Source of the DNA: Candidatus Desulfaltia bathyphila
Lineage (GTDB): Bacteria > Desulfobacterota > Desulfobacteria > Desulfobacterales > ETH-SRB1
Assembly (NCBI GenBank): GCA_014381545.1
Contig: JACNLL010000054.1
Location: forward strand, 1-38,082
Reading direction: 5' to 3'
Length of the DNA: 38,082 bases
The notes below the pieces were generated by a model. That model was not told the origin of the DNA. It searched no databases and worked only from the letters and a program-made list of their open reading frames with translations. This document shows positions 16,931-25,887 of the stretch, in pieces; the first letter of the stretch is position 1; each line of letters opens with the position of its first letter. Position numbers and translations under genes: made by a program.

Positions 16931-17644
16931 ATGGAAAGAATCATATCAAAAACTCAGGATAAATACATCAAAGCTTTAATGGACATCAGCAAGGCAATAA
17001 CCTCCGATCTTTACCTTGAAGATATTCTTAGGCTGATCGTGATGGTTACCGCAAGGGTTACCGGTGTTGAAATTTGTTCTTTATGGCTTATTGACGAAAC
17101 AGTCAGCCCTCCAATGATTCGGCTTAAGGCTTCTCAGTCGATTGATTCCCATTATGTGCGTGACAGATCTTTAAACCTGGATGAAGGCGTGGTCGGCTAT
17201 GTTGCCACACATAAATGCCCGCTTATTATTAAGGATGTCTTGAATGAGCCAAAGTTCAAGGAAAAAGAGATGGCCGAAAAGCTTGGGCTTGTATCAATGC
17301 TAAGTGTTCCGCTTCAGGTAAAGGATGAAAAGGTGATCGGTGTGTTTAACTGTTTTACGGCGCACCCTCATATATTCTCCGAAACAGAAGTGAACCTGAT
17401 AACAACTGTTGCGAATCAGGCGGCTCTGGCAATACTTAATACTGAGTTAATGGTTAAAAGCAAGGTTGTCCAGGAAGAGCTGGAGACGCGCAAGTTGGTT
17501 GAGCGGGCCAAGGAAGTACTGATGCTTCGCCGTAATAAAACCGGGGAAGAGGCATATTCTTGGATTAGAAAACGGAGCATGGATACACGCAAATCCATGC
17601 GCTGCGTAGCCGAAGCAATCCTGCTTTCAGAAGAGCTCGAATAG
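16931..17644 (+). CDS. GAF-ANTAR antitermination regulator
   Basis: A 237-residue protein. Residues about 10-165 form a GAF sensor domain (LRLIVMVTARVTGVEICSLW; DEGVVGYVATHKCPLIIKDV; SVPLQVKDEKVIGVFNC). Residues about 178-237 form an ANTAR RNA-binding domain (ETRKLVERAKEVLMLR; EEAYSWIRKRSMDTRKSMRCVAEAIL) with the usual three-helix pattern. ANTAR proteins bind paired hexaloop hairpins in leader RNAs and prevent termination. Just such a leader lies 70 bp downstream of the stop codon, before a glutamate-synthase-like gene, so its target is probably local. The GAF ligand cannot be inferred. No kinase or receiver domain is fused. Confidence 0.92.
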   Translation: MERIISKTQDKYIKALMDISKAITSDLYLEDILRLIVMVTARVTGVEICSLWLIDETVSPPMIRLKASQSIDSHYVRDRSLNLDEGVVGYVATHKCPLIIKDVLNEPKFKEKEMAEKLGLVSMLSVPLQVKDEKVIGVFNCFTAHPHIFSETEVNLITTVANQAALAILNTELMVKSKVVQEELETRKLVERAKEVLMLRRNKTGEEAYSWIRKRSMDTRKSMRCVAEAILLSEELE

Positions 17645-17660
17645 ATTTGCAAGAAATATC

Positions 17661-17707
17661 TTGACATATTTGCTATGGTTGACTTAAAAACTCAAGTTAA
17701 TAATTTT
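17661..17707 (+). promoter_or_regulatory. Probable promoter of the ANTAR-controlled leader
   Basis: TTGACA (17661-17666) with TTAAAA or TAAAAA 17-18 bp later, and alternatively TTGACT (17679-17684) with TAATTT at 17701-17706. Either would start a leader transcript shortly before the first hexaloop hairpin at 17715. Confidence 0.5.
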
Positions 17708-17714
17708 ACGAAAA

Positions 17715-17771
17715 CTCTGTACAATGGTGTGCAGAGATTTTTTTTGAATATGGAAGACAAAGGCGTCTTTT
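17715..17771 (+). promoter_or_regulatory. ANTAR dual hexaloop antiterminator RNA
   Basis: P1: an 8-bp stem (17715-17722 with 17729-17736) closes the hexaloop AAUGGU (17723-17728). P2: GAAGAC (17753-17758) pairs with GUCUUU (17765-17770) around the hexaloop AAAGGC (17759-17764). Both loops carry A at position 1 and G at position 4, the established ANTAR recognition rule. The P2 3' arm is part of the following terminator 5' arm, so the two structures exclude each other. Confidence 0.88.
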
Positions 17772-17805
17772 CCCTGTAAGAGGGTAGACGTCTTTTTTAT
17801 TTTTA
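17759..17805 (+). terminator. Leader terminator opposed by the ANTAR P2 hairpin
   Basis: A 10-bp stem (17759-17768 with 17786-17795, one G-U) with a further CCCU/AGGG pairing inside (17772-17775 and 17781-17784), then a U-rich tail to 17805. It lies 27 bp before the glutamate-synthase-like gene. Termination is expected when the ANTAR protein does not hold P2. Confidence 0.88.
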
Positions 17806-17832: not shown

Positions 17833-19398
17833 ATGTCATTTAGTAAACCAAACCGAAGCGCTGCCACAGTTAGTTTAACACGGGTTGATCCAGCTCCCGG
17901 GTCAGGCATTTGTGTAACCTGTCTTGATGGTTGTGAGGGACCGTGTGAGATAGGACGCTCTGCCTTGAAGGGACGGGAGATGATTTATCCGCAGCCTTTT
18001 GGAAAGATTACATCAGGTTCGGAAAAGGATTATCCGATCGATTTTTCCCATTTTAATATTCAGGGTACCTGTGTAGGGGCTGTTGGTGTGGATGCCGATC
18101 CTGATGTTGCCACCTTTTCTGCAGTTGACTGTTCAACAGCCGTAGGAAAAGATAGCTCTATAAAACTTGATTTTCCTGTATTTACGGGAGCTGTTGGATC
18201 AACCGAAATAGCCAGAGTCAATTGGGAAGAGATGGCTATTGGCGCAGCCATATCCGGCATTATTGTGGTAGCCGGAGAGAATATATGCGGAATGGATCCA
18301 CAGGCTGAATTTAAAAATGGTAAAATCAGCAAGTCTCCTGAGATGGAGCGTCGGATAGAAGCCTTTAAAAGATGGTATGACGGCAAGGGCGGCATCATCA
18401 TTCAAGCTAACGTTGAAGATACAAAGCTCGGTGTGCCGGAATATGTTATCGAAAAACTCGGAATAGAAATATTTGAACTCAAATGGGGACAGGGAGCCAA
18501 AGATATTGGCGGTGAGGTGAAACTGCCAAGCCTTGAGAGAGCGTTGGAGCTAAAAAAACGCGGATATATCGTTCTGCCCGACCCGACCAATCCAGCTGCC
18601 CAGGAGGCCTTTAAGGCAGGTGGAATCACTGAATTTGAAAGACACTCAAGGCTTGGTATGGTTGATGAGGAGTCTTTTTATAAAGCTGTTGAATATCTTC
18701 GCGGCGTTGGCGCAAAATATGTTACTCTTAAAACCGGAGCTTATCGTCCGGCCGATCTTGCAAGAGCCATTAAATATTCTTCAGAAGCCAAGATAGACAT
18801 GTTGACTATTGACGGCGCCGGAGGCGGCACAGGCATGAGTCCCTGGAGAATGATGAATGAATGGGGTATTCCTACTGTTGAGCTCGAATGTTTGGCTTAC
18901 CGGATGTGTGAACGTCTAAAAGCAAAGGGCGCCTATATTCCGCCTATTGCTATAGCAGGCGGTCTTTCACTGGAAGATCATATATTTAAGGCCATTGCCC
19001 TTGGAGCGCCCTATGTAAAAGCGATCTGTCTGGGAAGAGCAATGATGGCTGCAGCTATGGTTGCCAAGACCCATGGCAAATTAATGGCAGAAAAAATGGA
19101 GCTGGAAGGCGAGGACATTGAAACAGGATACATCAAACTGTTTGCGGTCGGCGCACAATTAAAAGAACGTTTTGGCGCTGATTTCAGCAAACTTCCGGCC
19201 GGCGCTATAGGAATGTACTCTTATGTAGACCGACTGCGCCAGGGCCTGCAGCAGTTTATGGCTGGTGCAAGAAAATTTGCTATTAAGTATATGGATAGAA
19301 ACGATCTCGTTGCTTTGACAAGAGATGCGGCTGATATATCAGGCATCCCGTATGTTATGGAATCGGATCAGAAGGAAATTGACAAAATACTGGGATAA
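17833..19398 (+). CDS. Glutamate-synthase-like FMN-binding domain protein
   Basis: A 521-residue stand-alone version of the glutamate synthase central/FMN domain (PF01645 type). Key segments are TIDGAGGGTGMSPWRMMNEWGIP (about residues 325-347), PIAIAGGLSLEDHIFKAIALGA and YVKAICLGRAMM. The N-terminus has a CxxCxxxCxxxC motif at Cys27, 30, 34 and 38, a possible iron-sulfur ligand set. It lacks the glutaminase domain; such archaeal-type proteins work with separate amidotransferase and ferredoxin subunits. A candidate amidotransferase starts at 37355. The ATG follows AAGGAGGG (17819-17826). It is controlled by the ANTAR leader. Whether it makes glutamate or serves the AOR operon downstream is not decided by sequence. 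Confidence 0.85.
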   Translation: MSFSKPNRSAATVSLTRVDPAPGSGICVTCLDGCEGPCEIGRSALKGREMIYPQPFGKITSGSEKDYPIDFSHFNIQGTCVGAVGVDADPDVATFSAVDCSTAVGKDSSIKLDFPVFTGAVGSTEIARVNWEEMAIGAAISGIIVVAGENICGMDPQAEFKNGKISKSPEMERRIEAFKRWYDGKGGIIIQANVEDTKLGVPEYVIEKLGIEIFELKWGQGAKDIGGEVKLPSLERALELKKRGYIVLPDPTNPAAQEAFKAGGITEFERHSRLGMVDEESFYKAVEYLRGVGAKYVTLKTGAYRPADLARAIKYSSEAKIDMLTIDGAGGGTGMSPWRMMNEWGIPTVELECLAYRMCERLKAKGAYIPPIAIAGGLSLEDHIFKAIALGAPYVKAICLGRAMMAAAMVAKTHGKLMAEKMELEGEDIETGYIKLFAVGAQLKERFGADFSKLPAGAIGMYSYVDRLRQGLQQFMAGARKFAIKYMDRNDLVALTRDAADISGIPYVMESDQKEIDKILG

Positions 19399-19417
19399 TT
19401 TTTGACTACTCGACCAC

Positions 19418-19563
19418 TTGAGACCTTTGAAAAATGCTCAATTTTGTTCAAGTTCAAGGAAGGCGAAAATTTTAAACGTAGGAATACATTGAGTATTTCG
19501 AGGCTTAAAATTTGAGCCTGACGCCGAAATTGGGCAAAAGGGGGCGTTTTGCAAAGGTCTCAA
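19418..19563. repeat. Palindromic element with TTGAGACCTTTG ends
   Basis: The ends TTGAGACCTTTG (19418-19429) and CAAAGGTCTCAA (19552-19563) are exact inverted copies. The interior holds further inverted segments (GGCGAAAATTTTAA against TTAAAATTTGAGCC). It is about 146 bp and non-coding. Elements with these ends recur, in my recollection, in Desulfobacterales genomes. It lies between the glutamate-synthase-like gene and the ferredoxin gene. Confidence 0.7.
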
Positions 19564-19590
19564 CTTGACGAGGTCTGAAAGGAGATAAAA

Positions 19591-19800
19591 ATGCTCAATA
19601 TAATCTGTAAACATAACTGCAAGGATTGCTATGCCCTTAGAATTTGTGCAGTACAGGCCATAAAAGATCAGCAGAGTTCAATCTATGTGGAAACTGATGA
19701 TTGCATCGGCTGTGGCGCTTGCCGCAGAGCGTGCGTTGTTTTCAGTTACGATCAGGCTCTGAAGGAAAAAACCGTAGAGTGGCTCAAAGGCGCTGCGTAA
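19591..19800 (+). CDS. Small Cys-rich ferredoxin-like protein
   Basis: A 69-residue protein with eight Cys. The first four are C7, C11, C14 and C19 (CKHNCKDCYALRIC), an unusual spacing. The last four are in DDCIGCGACRRACVVF (CxxCxxCxxxC), a standard [4Fe-4S] site. AAAGGAG (19577-19583) precedes the ATG. It lies 58 bp before the AOR gene on the same strand and probably serves as an electron carrier or subunit for it. A glutamate synthase role is also possible because that gene is upstream. Confidence 0.8.
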   Translation: MLNIICKHNCKDCYALRICAVQAIKDQQSSIYVETDDCIGCGACRRACVVFSYDQALKEKTVEWLKGAA

Positions 19801-19858: not shown

Positions 19859-21700
19859 ATGTACGGTTGGACTGGTCGGTGTTTGAGGGTTAACCTGACT
19901 AAAAATGATTTTCAGCTTGAAGAAATCTCTCAGGAACTCATGAATAAATTTTTAGGCGGGCGCGGGCTTGGGGTTAAAATTCTTTATGATGAAATTGATC
20001 CCACAGTTGATTCATTATCTCCTGACAATAAGCTTATATTTGTTTCAGGCCCGCTTGTAGGAACAGGCGCTGTAACCGGAGCATCATGCAATGTGATAAC
20101 AAAAAGCGCTCTTTCAGGGACAATTGCGTGCGCAAAATTGCGAGGGCATTTCGGCGCGGAATTGAAATACTCGGGTCTGGATATGATTATTGTAGAGGGG
20201 AAGGCCGAATTTCCCGTTATTCTTTCCATTATGGATGATAAAATTGTCATCCAGCCTGCTCTCGAGTATTGGGGCCGTACCACCTCCGAAACGGAGAATA
20301 TGTTTAAAAACAGCCTGAGCGATAAATGGGCGGCTTGTGACACTTATCTGTTATCCATCGGTTCTGCCGGAGAGAAACTTGTGCCCTTGGCTAATGTTAT
20401 TAACGATGGTTTTTTGTCGGTTGGGGCCGCTGGTATCGGCGCTGTAATGGGCTCTAAAAATCTTAAGGCAATTGCAGTCAAGGGTAATCACTCAGTGACA
20501 GTAGCTGACGGAAACCGTTTTGTGCAGGTTGTAACAACTTTGATCAACAAACTAAACAGCGCGTCGCTGACCTCTCAATCTATGTCTTCCTGGGGCTCTG
20601 CTTTTTTAGTAGGTCTTTGTAATCAAAAGGGGATATTGCCTTTTAAGAATTTTCAGCGTTCTTCATTTGAGGAATCAAAACAGATTGGAACAGAAGCTCT
20701 GTCCAGCGCTTTTGCGCTTAGAAGCAGGGGCTGTTTTGCGTGTCCGATTGCTTGCATAAAAAAAACCGATGTCAACAACCCGATTTTCAAGGGCAAAGGA
20801 ATGGCTCCGACCTACCTGGCTATCGGCGCTTTGGGGCTAAATTGCGGCATTACCGATCTTACCGACATCGGAATGGCCAACATGATTTGCGCTGAGATGG
20901 GCCTGGATCCTATTGCATCAGGCGGAACTATCGCCACTGCTATGGAATTTAGTGAAAAAGGCCTTCTCTCAAAAGACTCTATAAAGCTTGATTTGCGGTT
21001 TGGTCATGGAAAAGATCTGATCCATGCGCTGACCCTTATAGCGACAAAAAAAGGGCATGCTATAAGAATAGGGCAGGGAGCAAAGGCAATTTCAGAGGAA
21101 TATGGGCATCCGGAACTCTTTATGGGTGTAAAAAATATACCCCTTGCCCCCTTTGATCCCCGTGCGATTCAGGGAATGGGACTTCACTTTGCAACTTCTA
21201 ATTATGGCCCACACCACCTGTATGCATACACTTTTATTGATGAAGTGCTGAACGTCCATGAGAAACTGGAACCATGGACTATTGAAGGAAAGCCTGAATT
21301 GGTAAAGCGATTCCAGGATATAACAGCAGTGATGGATTCGCTGGGGCTCTGCAATTGGTCGTTAATGGGGCTTAAATTCAATAGTTTTGTACCCATGATT
21401 AATAGCTGCTTAGGCACAAGCTACAAGGCTGAAGATCTACTTCAGACAGGTGAGAGGATCTGGAATCTGGAGAGACTGTTCAATATGCGAGCCGGATTTA
21501 ATCGAAGTCATGATATCCTGCCTGAGAGATTTTACAATGAGCACATTGCAGATGGGCCGGCAAAGGGGCAAATCAGCAAGGCCAATGAAATGCTGGATGA
21601 CTACTATGGATTTCGTGGTTGGGATAACAAAGGTCAGCCGTCCGCAAAGATCTTAAAGGCATTAGAATTGGAGGAAATATATGGCGAGGATAAAAATTGA
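19859..21700 (+). CDS. Aldehyde:ferredoxin oxidoreductase family W-bispterin enzyme
   Basis: A 613-residue AOR-family protein. The N-terminal FLGGRGLGVKILYDEIDP (residues 31-48) and the pterin-binding regions are normal. The [4Fe-4S] ligands are Cys292, 295 and 299 (GCFACPIACIK) and Cys498 in DSLGLC, the family's second signature. At the place where classic AORs have an EYET motif this protein reads APTYLAIGALGLN (316-328), so the usual acid residues are missing. The next gene overlaps its end by 20 nt and encodes a multi-cluster ferredoxin. With the Hdr-, Mvh- and Nuo-like genes that follow, the enzyme may reduce a carboxylic acid or a low-potential substrate such as an aryl-CoA. Overall sequence seems closer to AOR than to BamB. 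Confidence 0.87.
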   Translation: MYGWTGRCLRVNLTKNDFQLEEISQELMNKFLGGRGLGVKILYDEIDPTVDSLSPDNKLIFVSGPLVGTGAVTGASCNVITKSALSGTIACAKLRGHFGAELKYSGLDMIIVEGKAEFPVILSIMDDKIVIQPALEYWGRTTSETENMFKNSLSDKWAACDTYLLSIGSAGEKLVPLANVINDGFLSVGAAGIGAVMGSKNLKAIAVKGNHSVTVADGNRFVQVVTTLINKLNSASLTSQSMSSWGSAFLVGLCNQKGILPFKNFQRSSFEESKQIGTEALSSAFALRSRGCFACPIACIKKTDVNNPIFKGKGMAPTYLAIGALGLNCGITDLTDIGMANMICAEMGLDPIASGGTIATAMEFSEKGLLSKDSIKLDLRFGHGKDLIHALTLIATKKGHAIRIGQGAKAISEEYGHPELFMGVKNIPLAPFDPRAIQGMGLHFATSNYGPHHLYAYTFIDEVLNVHEKLEPWTIEGKPELVKRFQDITAVMDSLGLCNWSLMGLKFNSFVPMINSCLGTSYKAEDLLQTGERIWNLERLFNMRAGFNRSHDILPERFYNEHIADGPAKGQISKANEMLDDYYGFRGWDNKGQPSAKILKALELEEIYGEDKN

Positions 21701-22102: not shown

Positions 22103-25100
22103 ATGAAAACTGATACCTCACATAATCTCGTTGGCGCTGTAATGGTTGTTGGGGGTGGAATTGCCGGAATTCAGGCAGCCATGGATCTGGCTGATGCCGG
22201 CTTTTATGTCTATCTGATCGAACGCTCATCGGCCATAGGCGGTATTATGGCCGGTCTGGACAAGACCTTTCCAACCAACGACTGTGCCATTTGAATACTG
22301 GCGCCCAAGCTGGTGGAGGCCGGTCGGTCTCCTAACATAGAGATCATTGCAAACGCTGAGCTTCAAGAAGTTTCCGGCAGCGCCGGGGACTTTCGTGTAA
22401 AGATATTGCGACGGCCCCGTTATGTGGATGTAACAAAATGTACAGGATGCGGAGTATGCAGCCAGTATTGCCCTGTTATCATACCCGATCCCCATGATCA
22501 GAACTTGTCCGGCAAAAAAGCTATTGATATCCTTTATACGCAAGCAGTGCCTTCCGCCTATTTCGTTGATTCCGATTATTGCCTTTTTTTGAACAAACAA
22601 GAGTGCAAGCAATGTACACGGGCATGCCAGATCGGGGCTGTTAATTTTGATCAAAAACCGGAAGTTGTCGACTACCAGGTTGGCGCTATTATTCTGACTA
22701 CAGGCTTTAAGGAGTTTGATCCGGACCGCATCAGCGCTTACCACTACAATGACTCTCCCAATATCGTTACCGGCCTTGAATTTGAGCGTATATCAAGTGC
22801 GTCCGGTCCATATATGGGAAAGATTCAAAGGCCGTCGGATTTAAAAAAACCGGAAAGGATCGCCTTTATTCTATGCGCGGGTTCCCGTTCCAGTGTTTCG
22901 GGCAACAGCTACTGCTCATCGGTTTGTTGCAAGTACGCTGTTAAAGACGCTATAGTCGCTCTGGAACATGAGCCGGATCTTGATATTACGATATTTTTTA
23001 TAGATATGCGGATGCACGGCAAGGGGCTGGAGAATTTTTATGAACGGGCAAAGGAATCCGGGGTGAAATTCATTCGCTCCAGAGTTTCCGATGTCAAACC
23101 TGATTCACATACAGAGGATATCACCGTAAAATATATTGCTGAGGATAGTTCATTACAAGAAGAAACATTTAACCTGATTATACTTCCCATGGGTCTGGAA
23201 GCTTCTCACGGAAATTTTGCCCTGGCCAGGGCAACAGGTATCGATCTCAATCAATACGGTTTTTGCCGAACCGGTCTGTTTCATCCTCTTTCGTGCACAA
23301 GAGAGGGGATATATGTTGCAGGTGGATTTCGAGGGCCTATGGCCCTTCCTGATACTGTTACGCAAGCAAGCGGCGCTGCTGTATGTGCGGCCGAACTCCT
23401 CTTTCCGGCTCGTCGGACACTCATCTCGGAAAAACAATTCCCGGAGGAACGTTCTGTTGAAGAGGAAAATTTACGGATTGGGGTGTTTGTTTGTAACTGC
23501 GGGAAGAATATCAACGGAGTTGTGGATGTGCCGGAAGTCAAAAAATATGCCGCCAGACTTACCGATGTTGTCATGAGCGCTGACAATCTTTACTCATGCT
23601 CCGAAGATGCCCAGAGGTTGATCAAGGAAACCATTGTCAGGGAAAAACTAAACCGTGTTGTTATTGCAGCCTGTACTCCGAGGACTCATGAACCACTATT
23701 TCAAGAAACTACAAGAGAGGCGGGATTGAACAAATGTCTCGTTGAAATGGTAAATATCCGCGATCAATGCTCCTGGGTCCATGCCCATGAAAAGGCAGAG
23801 GCTACAAAAAAGGCAAAAGACCTGGTGCGAATGGCTGTTGCAAAGGCGAGGCTGATTCAGGCGCTTGATGAGCCTGTCATAGATGTTGTTCCAAAGGGTC
23901 TTATTATCGGTGGCGGGCTTGCCGGTATGACCGCTGCGCTCTCATTGGCCGACCAGGGTTTTGAATCCTTTCTAATTGAGAAAACAGGACAATTAGGAGG
24001 GAATCTCCATAATATACATTATACTCTGGAGGGGGAGGACCCTCAGGATTATCTCAAACAGGTTGTCGATCTGGTAAGGGAACATAAGCTTATTCAGGTT
24101 TTTACCGAAGCCGAGATTGAAAGCGTCAACGGGTTCGTGGGTAACTTCCAGACAGCGATAAATACCCTGCAGGGTTCTGAAAAGAAAATCGTGGAGTTGC
24201 AGCATGGCATCATCATTATTGCCACCGGAGCTGTTTCCTTTAGACCGGATGAATATATGTACGGGAAAAACGACCATGTAATGCTGCAGCATGAACTGGA
24301 AGGACAGTTGGCCTCCAGCCGGTTTGTCCCGGGTGACAAAGACTCCGTTGTCATGATTCAGTGTGTCGGTTCCCGGGATGATAAGCATCGGTATTGCAGC
24401 AGTATCTGCTGCAGTATGGCGGTCAAAAACGCACTGAAAATTAAAGAAATCAATCCTTCAACCAATGTATATATCCTTTACAGGGATATGAGAACATACG
24501 GATTTCATGAAGATTATTACGTACAGGCCAGAAAGCAGGGAGTTGTATTTATCCGGTATGACAGGAATTACAAACCGGAAGTTGCTGAAGTTGATGGAAG
24601 ATTGCAGGTGACCGTAAGAGACCTGCTTATTAACAAGGATGTAGTTGTTGATGCAAGGCTCCTCGCTCTAAGTACAGCAATTGTTCCGCAGAAAGATGAT
24701 ATATTAGAACGGGCATTGCCGGTGCCCCGATCAGAAGACGGCTTTTTCCTGGAGTCACATGTCCAGTTAAAGCCGGTCGATTCATACCTTGACGGGATTT
24801 ACATATGCGGCATGGCTCAGTTTCCAAAAACCATTGACGAAGCAATTGCCCAGGCTAAAGCCGCGGCATCCAAAGCCGGAATTCTTCTTGCCAGAGGATA
24901 TGTAAAGGCTGAACCGGTTATCTCATCATGTGATCCAGATATATGCGTTGGCTGCGGTATTTGTGAATATTTTTGCCCCTACAATGCCATCAAGATGAAA
25001 AAGGTAGGGAAACGGAAAAAGGCGGAAATCATTACTGCTGCGTGTAAAGGTTGCGGGGTTTGCGCTTCATATTGTCCGACCAGGGCTATTAGTATGGGCA

Positions 25101-25180
25101 GGTTTACAGACGATCAGATTGTCGCCCAAATCGAGGCTTTTGGGGAAACAGTTATGGTTAAGGAACAAAAGGCATGGTGA
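22103..25180 (+). CDS. Selenocysteine-containing HdrA-like flavoprotein (BamE-like)
   Basis: A 1025-residue HdrA-type protein read through an in-frame TGA at 22292-22294 as Sec64. The context TNDCAI[13 protein letters not shown] aligns with the HdrA site where most members have Cys. The upstream part has the FAD motif [19 protein letters not shown]. After the Sec come one ferredoxin-like segment ([21 protein letters not shown]), the HdrA core ([26 protein letters not shown]), a second FAD motif ([19 protein letters not shown]) and a C-terminal 2x[4Fe-4S] unit ([24 protein letters not shown]). The double length fits large HdrA proteins of sulfate reducers and BamE. The 3' end overlaps mvhD by 7 nt. 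A single-base error could mimic a stop, but the flanking identity and stem support Sec. Confidence 0.9.
22292..22324 (+). other. UGA Sec codon with candidate SECIS stem (HdrA)
   Basis: The TGA at 22292-22294 is followed at once by a hairpin: ACTGGC (22297-22302) pairs with GCCGGT (22319-22324), and the apex can form CCA/UGG (22305-22307 and 22311-22313). Bacterial SECIS elements lie directly after UGA and present a G-U-containing loop, which fits. selA, selB and selC are not in this window. Confidence 0.7.
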
Positions 25181-25887
25181 ATGAACCTAAAATACTTGGT
25201 TTTTTATGCCACTGGTGCTGTTATGCGGCGGCAGATGCAGCAGGCGTGGCCCGGTTTCAATATCCGCCCAATATTCGTGTCATCAGGGTGATGTGTGCCG
25301 GAAGGATAGACCCTCTCTTCATTCTGGATGGATTTCTCAATGGAGCAGACGGAATATTTGTGGGCGGGTGACACCTTGGGGAGTGTCATTACCGGTCCGG
25401 TAATTACGAAGCCATAAACAGAATTGCGCTTATCAGAATCATCCTCGAAAACCTTCGGGTCAACACAACAAGGGTCGCTTTAGAATGGGTATCCGCGGCT
25501 GAAGCCCCCCGTTTTACGCAGGCAATCACGGAATTTACCGACCGTATCCGGAGTCTTGGCGCCATGGGGGATAGTGAAGGTTTAGACCATCAAATATTAA
25601 TGCACAAGATAAGAGCGGCCCGGATGTCTCTGGAGAGGATGAAGCTGCGGATGGCTTTTGCAAAGCAGGCAAAACAGATGAAAAAAGAGGGGACATATGG
25701 TCGGTTTCCCTCTGAAGAAAAATTAACAACAACCCTCATGAATGAAATGACCCTTTATGAGGCATTCTTGTATTTGGAAGAAGGAAAACGCTCGGCCTCG
25801 GAGTTATCTGAACTGCTCAATGTTTCTGAGGATCGGGTAGCGTCCTGTATCGAGACCCTGAGAAAGAAAAAAATCTGGCAGGGATAG
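25174..25887 (+). CDS. Selenocysteine-containing MvhD-like subunit (BamF-like)
   Basis: A 237-residue protein read through TGA 25369-25371 as Sec66. The N-terminal [34 protein letters not shown] and GADGIFVGG-Sec-HLGECHY follow the MvhD/VhuD family, in which this position is Cys or, in Methanococcales VhuD, Sec. The family carries a [2Fe-2S] cluster between Hdr and its electron partner. After a 130-residue MvhD core there is a C-terminal extension of about 105 residues. It is helical and ends with a winged-helix-like segment ([27 protein letters not shown]). The gene overlaps hdrA by 7 nt and hdrC starts 8 bp later. Without read-through the two halves are useless fragments, which also argues for Sec. 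Confidence 0.9.
25369..25388 (+). other. UGA Sec codon with candidate SECIS stem (MvhD)
   Basis: GACAC (25370-25374) pairs exactly with GTGTC (25383-25387) around the loop CTTGGGGA; GGT before and ACC after can extend the stem with a small bulge. The UGA forms the base of the stem, as in fdhF-type bacterial SECIS elements. Confidence 0.72.

Follow-up and report, generated by a model that had tools for sequence, protein, structure and literature searches.

The class of dual-hexaloop leader RNAs that work with ANTAR-domain proteins has been described by Ramesh et al. 2012 (PMC3369931), who also predicted members at glutamate synthase genes in Desulfotomaculum and at nitrogenase genes in Pelobacter. 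In the eut leaders of Enterococcus faecalis, the RNAs of EutV/EutW (PMC3369931; Walshe 2022, PMC8934654), two hexaloops with A at the first and G at the fourth position (A1/G4) are combined with a terminator that overlaps the second stem, P2. The nasF leader of Klebsiella belongs to a nitrogen operon and is served by NasR, a one-component ANTAR protein with its own sensor domain (PMC7496416, PMC3369931). Of the one-component ANTAR subclass, which is large and includes GAF-ANTAR proteins, two members had been characterised by 2020, NasR with a NIT domain and PAL with a PAS/LOV domain (PMC7496416). Literature searches for ANTAR together with Desulfobacter or Geobacter returned nothing specific.

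Here, we analysed a window of 38,082 nucleotides (the whole stretch examined, contig JACNLL010000054.1) from Candidatus Desulfaltia bathyphila of Eth-SRB1, a lineage reported to be sister to the seep partner Seep-SRB1a (PMC10553843). The features relevant to the present analysis are the following.

16931..17644, + strand: GAF-ANTAR regulator gene, 237 aa (Pfam GAF 1.1e-18, ANTAR 3.9e-18)
17661..17689, + strand: putative promoter TTGACA-17-TTAAAA, 5' of P1 (TTGACA conserved; -10 weak, inferred)
17715..17736, + strand: P1 hairpin, 8 bp, hexaloop AAUGGU (stem 17715-17722/17729-17736, loop 17723-17728)
17752..17771, + strand: P2 hairpin (antiterminator), hexaloop AAAGGC (stem 17752-17758/17765-17771, loop 17759-17764)
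17759..17798, + strand: intrinsic terminator, mutually exclusive with P2 (fold -18.6 kcal/mol)
17833..19398, + strand: predicted controlled gene, glutamate-synthase-like protein, 521 aa (partial PF01645 match)
19420..19562, + strand: imperfect palindrome of 143 bp separating target and AOR operon (a multi-copy repeat of this genome)
19591..19800, + strand: small ferredoxin-like gene, first of the AOR cluster (homologous gene in genomes G007, G009, G010 and G012)
19859..21700, + strand: aldehyde ferredoxin oxidoreductase (AOR), possible read-through target (AFOR N and C domains)

The leader, located between the GAF-ANTAR gene and the glutamate-synthase-like gene, shares with the eut leaders the A1/G4 dual hexaloop and the overlap of P2 with the terminator. 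The two systems differ in that EutV is a phosphorylated response regulator whereas the present regulator is a single GAF-ANTAR protein, and in that the eut leaders precede ethanolamine genes while the targets here belong to nitrogen assimilation. In its one-component organization the regulator resembles NasR, which, however, senses nitrate by its NIT domain, whereas the present protein has a GAF domain. Motif type, nitrogen theme and glutamate synthase targets are common to our element and to the Desulfotomaculum and Pelobacter RNAs. Measured against the portion of the 2012 paper drawn on here, what is added to the known class is a specific GAF-ANTAR partner, the order-wide pairing of this orthologue with the element, and a target set in which the usual gene product is a short, divergent glutamate-synthase-like protein.

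A first-pass annotation made from the sequence had proposed two stems obeying the A1/G4 rule, the second of them overlapping a strong terminator, next to a gene for a GAF-ANTAR protein, and our analysis bears out this architecture in all parts. Both hexaloops, AAUGGU in P1 and AAAGGC in P2, follow the A1/G4 pattern. The 5' arm of the terminator begins within the P2 loop, positions 17759-17768 being paired with 17786-17795 (10 bp, plus CCCT/AGGG) ahead of a T-rich tail, and folding shows the two structures to be mutually exclusive. The region 17700-17805 folds with -33.2 kcal/mol (z -4.5); without protein, the predicted default fold is the terminator, and P2 is formed only if the terminator 3' arm is omitted. 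A dual A1/G4 hexaloop with overlapping terminator occurs once in the window, compared to none in 25 dinucleotide shuffles (both strands). A covariance model derived from 15 loci, including that of the window, yielded 96 bits at the element. The single further match in the same genome at E<=1 (G000:C89, 21.7 bits) was rejected as an ANTAR element, since by eye it reads as a TPP riboswitch with terminator 5' of a thiD/thiE-like gene. The pattern GACAAWGRCGTC has two more 12-base matches in the genome (contigs C7 and C65), and a reversed control pattern matched more often. The leader has no Rfam match at the gathering threshold; ranked by E-value, sub-threshold matches appear, such as Pseudomonas sRNA P11 with 28.5 bits, where the cut-off is 70. 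The leader is confirmed as a real ANTAR-type dual-hexaloop element.

The product of the adjacent gene possesses both predicted domains (Pfam, E 1e-18 for GAF and 4e-18 for ANTAR) and is the sole match to the ANTAR domain in its genome (2.07 Mb, 97% complete). Orthologues with 65-92% identity are present in 28 of 38 genomes, that of Candidatus Desulfaltia bathyphila included. Alignment to EutV, for which the RNA contacts have been determined (PMC8934654), revealed that seven of eleven contact residues are identical (R142, K143, K149, Y164, R168, M172 and R175) and that K147 is replaced by R, while E160G, N173D and R177S differ. As judged from this alignment, the RNA-contact residues of the ANTAR domain appear to be mostly retained. 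The best NCBIfam match of the GAF region is NifA, at 53 bits far below the family cut-off, which is a weak hint at nitrogen sensing.

Very probably, the element functions as an ANTAR-type transcription-antitermination leader for the glutamate-synthase-like gene. In the mode of action that we infer, the RNA would start just 5' of P1, P1 would fold, and the terminator would then form by default so that transcription stops. The active GAF-ANTAR protein encoded by the neighbouring gene, probably acting as a dimer under the control of a GAF-domain ligand, would bind the hexaloops of P1 and P2; P2 would thereby be held, the 3' arm of the terminator left unpaired, and transcription would continue. 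The signal perceived by the GAF domain is most likely a metabolite reporting nitrogen status, e.g. 2-oxoglutarate. Read-through into the AOR operon may occur but would not represent the conserved function.

The nature of the target genes was assessed at homologous elements. Covariance searches recovered the element in 201 of the 389 genomes of the class, a count obtained for a small element with models built on its own relatives. The gene following these elements is usually of the 521-aa glutamate-synthase-like type. The same kind of gene follows most of the 25 loci read at the phylum level, one of which precedes a full-length GltB. Alternative downstream genes, identified by Pfam on representatives, encode glutamate dehydrogenase (G001, G028, G016) or full-length GltB (G018), and an operon of FlpD/MvhD, MetV-like and MetF genes lies downstream of the element in some relatives. 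Operons with a MetV-like gene follow the element at loci L065, L085, L086, L105, L133, L170 and L214, in some cases with MvhD/FlpD and MetF, which suggests one-carbon metabolism as an additional ANTAR target. At L083 and L084, before full-length GltB and glutamate dehydrogenase, the leader contains three A1/G4 hexaloops.

Two genomes are informative with respect to the role of the element. In G001, of the same genus, a genome search for PF01645 proteins found none, and the element precedes a glutamate dehydrogenase gene, followed by what by eye is a GltD C-terminal-like remnant before carA. In G027, which is devoid of the regulator orthologue, the terminator is kept 5' of the same glutamate-synthase-like gene while the hexaloops are degenerate. 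The glutamate dehydrogenase target of G001 and the broken loops of G027 support a role in nitrogen assimilation. In the window, glnD is located upstream and glnA/glnB/amtB downstream. The conserved target theme is glutamate and nitrogen assimilation rather than AOR, and, judged by its gene neighbours, the element looks like a control device for nitrogen assimilation.

The designation of the target as glutamate-synthase-like holds in part. The 521-aa protein matches PF01645 with 56 bits, yet the match covers positions 185-310 of 369, and of the features of a canonical glutamate synthase (glutaminase, FMN synthase and GXGXG domains) this partial match is all that was found. An invariant CxxCxxxCxxxC motif lies close to its N terminus. 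About 18 kb downstream (contig positions 37356-40046), another protein is encoded that matches PF01645 more fully and has an upstream ORF resembling class II amidotransferases by eye, and the presence of this separate split glutamate synthase renders the enzymatic role of the target uncertain.

The AOR-Hdr-Nuo genes announced by the first-pass annotation are present after the target, and it had further been suggested that read-through might bring them under ANTAR control. If so, the switch would govern every gene from the glutamate-synthase-like one to the end of the AOR-Hdr-Nuo operon, an extension of the antitermination reading that we regard as possible but rather doubtful. Read-through itself is conceivable: all these genes share one strand, a scan of the gap at 19399-19590 yielded no + strand intrinsic terminator, and in G007 target and ferredoxin gene are separated by about 36 bp only. 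The order target-ferredoxin-AOR is preserved in five genomes of the same family (that of the window, G007, G009, G010 and G012). However, AOR is absent beside the target in G002 and G005 of the same genus and in the loci of other families examined, and the gap in the window holds the 143-bp palindrome (gap fold -74 kcal/mol), other palindromic sequence being present in G010 and G012. AOR adjacency, found in five genomes of one family, does not amount to a conserved ANTAR regulon. Only tentatively might it be proposed that in this family the switch has come to govern, through transcription continuing beyond the target gene, a tungsten AOR - HdrA(Sec) - MvhD(Sec) - NuoEFG complex; if true, nitrogen status would be tied to a low-potential electron-transfer complex in relatives of the seep sulfate reducers.

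Some additional features of this region were noted. The genome contains about 16 copies of the 143-bp repeat that are nearly full-length and at least 89% identical. The best PDB match of the AOR (19859-21700) is 1aor with 521 bits, and identity as a BamB-type enzyme (139 bits) was rejected. The HdrA-like gene (22103-25180, + strand) has an in-frame TGA at 22292 that likely specifies selenocysteine; the corresponding position is also an in-frame stop in G007, G009 and G010. The MvhD-like gene (25174-25887, + strand; family assigned by eye) similarly contains an in-frame TGA at 25369 in the context FVGG-U-HLGECHY, so that its product is likely a second selenoprotein of the operon.

Comparison among relatives also bears on whether the leader is regulated at all. 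P1 and P2 might be ordinary, unregulated terminators of the GAF-ANTAR transcript, with the promoter of the target located further on; the T run after P1 and the terminator-like score of this hairpin would fit such an arrangement. However, the alignment shows the P1 T run to be restricted to close relatives, and exact TTGACA occurs within 130 nt 5' of P1, and thus ahead of both hairpins, in 69 of 84 distinct homologous elements, compared to 4.5% of control windows. In the same 84 elements the A1/G4 rule is near-invariant in both loops, with few exceptions; loss of the hexaloops in relatives had been named beforehand as the outcome that would speak against an ANTAR switch. In an alignment of 15 leaders P1 covaries and P2 is almost invariant, and 94.7% of the cells of the 10-bp outer terminator stem are paired in the 15 relatives. 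A second alignment of 29 matches has 48 two-sided P1 cells versus 13.4 after shuffling, with two-sided changes in six of eight P1 pairs; as P2 hardly varies, covariation supports P1 only. Together with the occurrence of the same element before other genes distant from the ANTAR gene, and with its co-occurrence with the ANTAR protein, these data make simple termination highly improbable.

Among the 389 genomes of the class, 165 have both the element and the ANTAR orthologue, 32 the orthologue only, 36 the RNA only and 156 neither (Fisher p 2e-40, with shared ancestry ignored). Omission of the genomes that had contributed to the model leaves 142, 32, 35 and 156, respectively (p 9e-36, with the same proviso). 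The 68 discordant genomes may be due in part to incomplete assemblies, strict filters or other ANTAR proteins. In 38 of 80 loci from genome contigs the element is situated 63-857 nt 3' of the ANTAR gene. A search at the level of the phylum gave matches in 76 of 395 genomes at E<=1e-4; weak opposite-strand matches (L094, L099, L100 and L101) were attributed to terminator palindromes and disregarded. The pair of element and GAF-ANTAR protein is conserved across the Desulfobacterales, and elements detected by the same model occur elsewhere in the phylum. G002 (L003/L111), whose ANTAR protein shares 92% identity, has an insert between P1 and P2 and retains P2 and the terminator. Desulfocicer vacuolatum DSM 3385 (L137) encodes the orthologue, and no element was found near it. 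That the leader is real but bound by another regulator, the neighbouring GAF-ANTAR protein acting elsewhere, is just as implausible as simple termination, as the 36 genomes with the RNA and without this orthologue (at the cut-off used) are set against the strong co-occurrence of the two, the lack of a second ANTAR domain in the search of the window's own genome, and the standing of the element as the only strong covariance match there.

Antitermination by the neighbouring GAF-ANTAR protein is therefore the reading that we favour. Cultured Desulfosarcina widdelii and D. alkanivorans both carry the orthologue with the element just 3' of it, which renders the system testable. By this analysis, a GAF-ANTAR protein gains a specific predicted RNA partner and predicted target genes, conserved across the Desulfobacterales.
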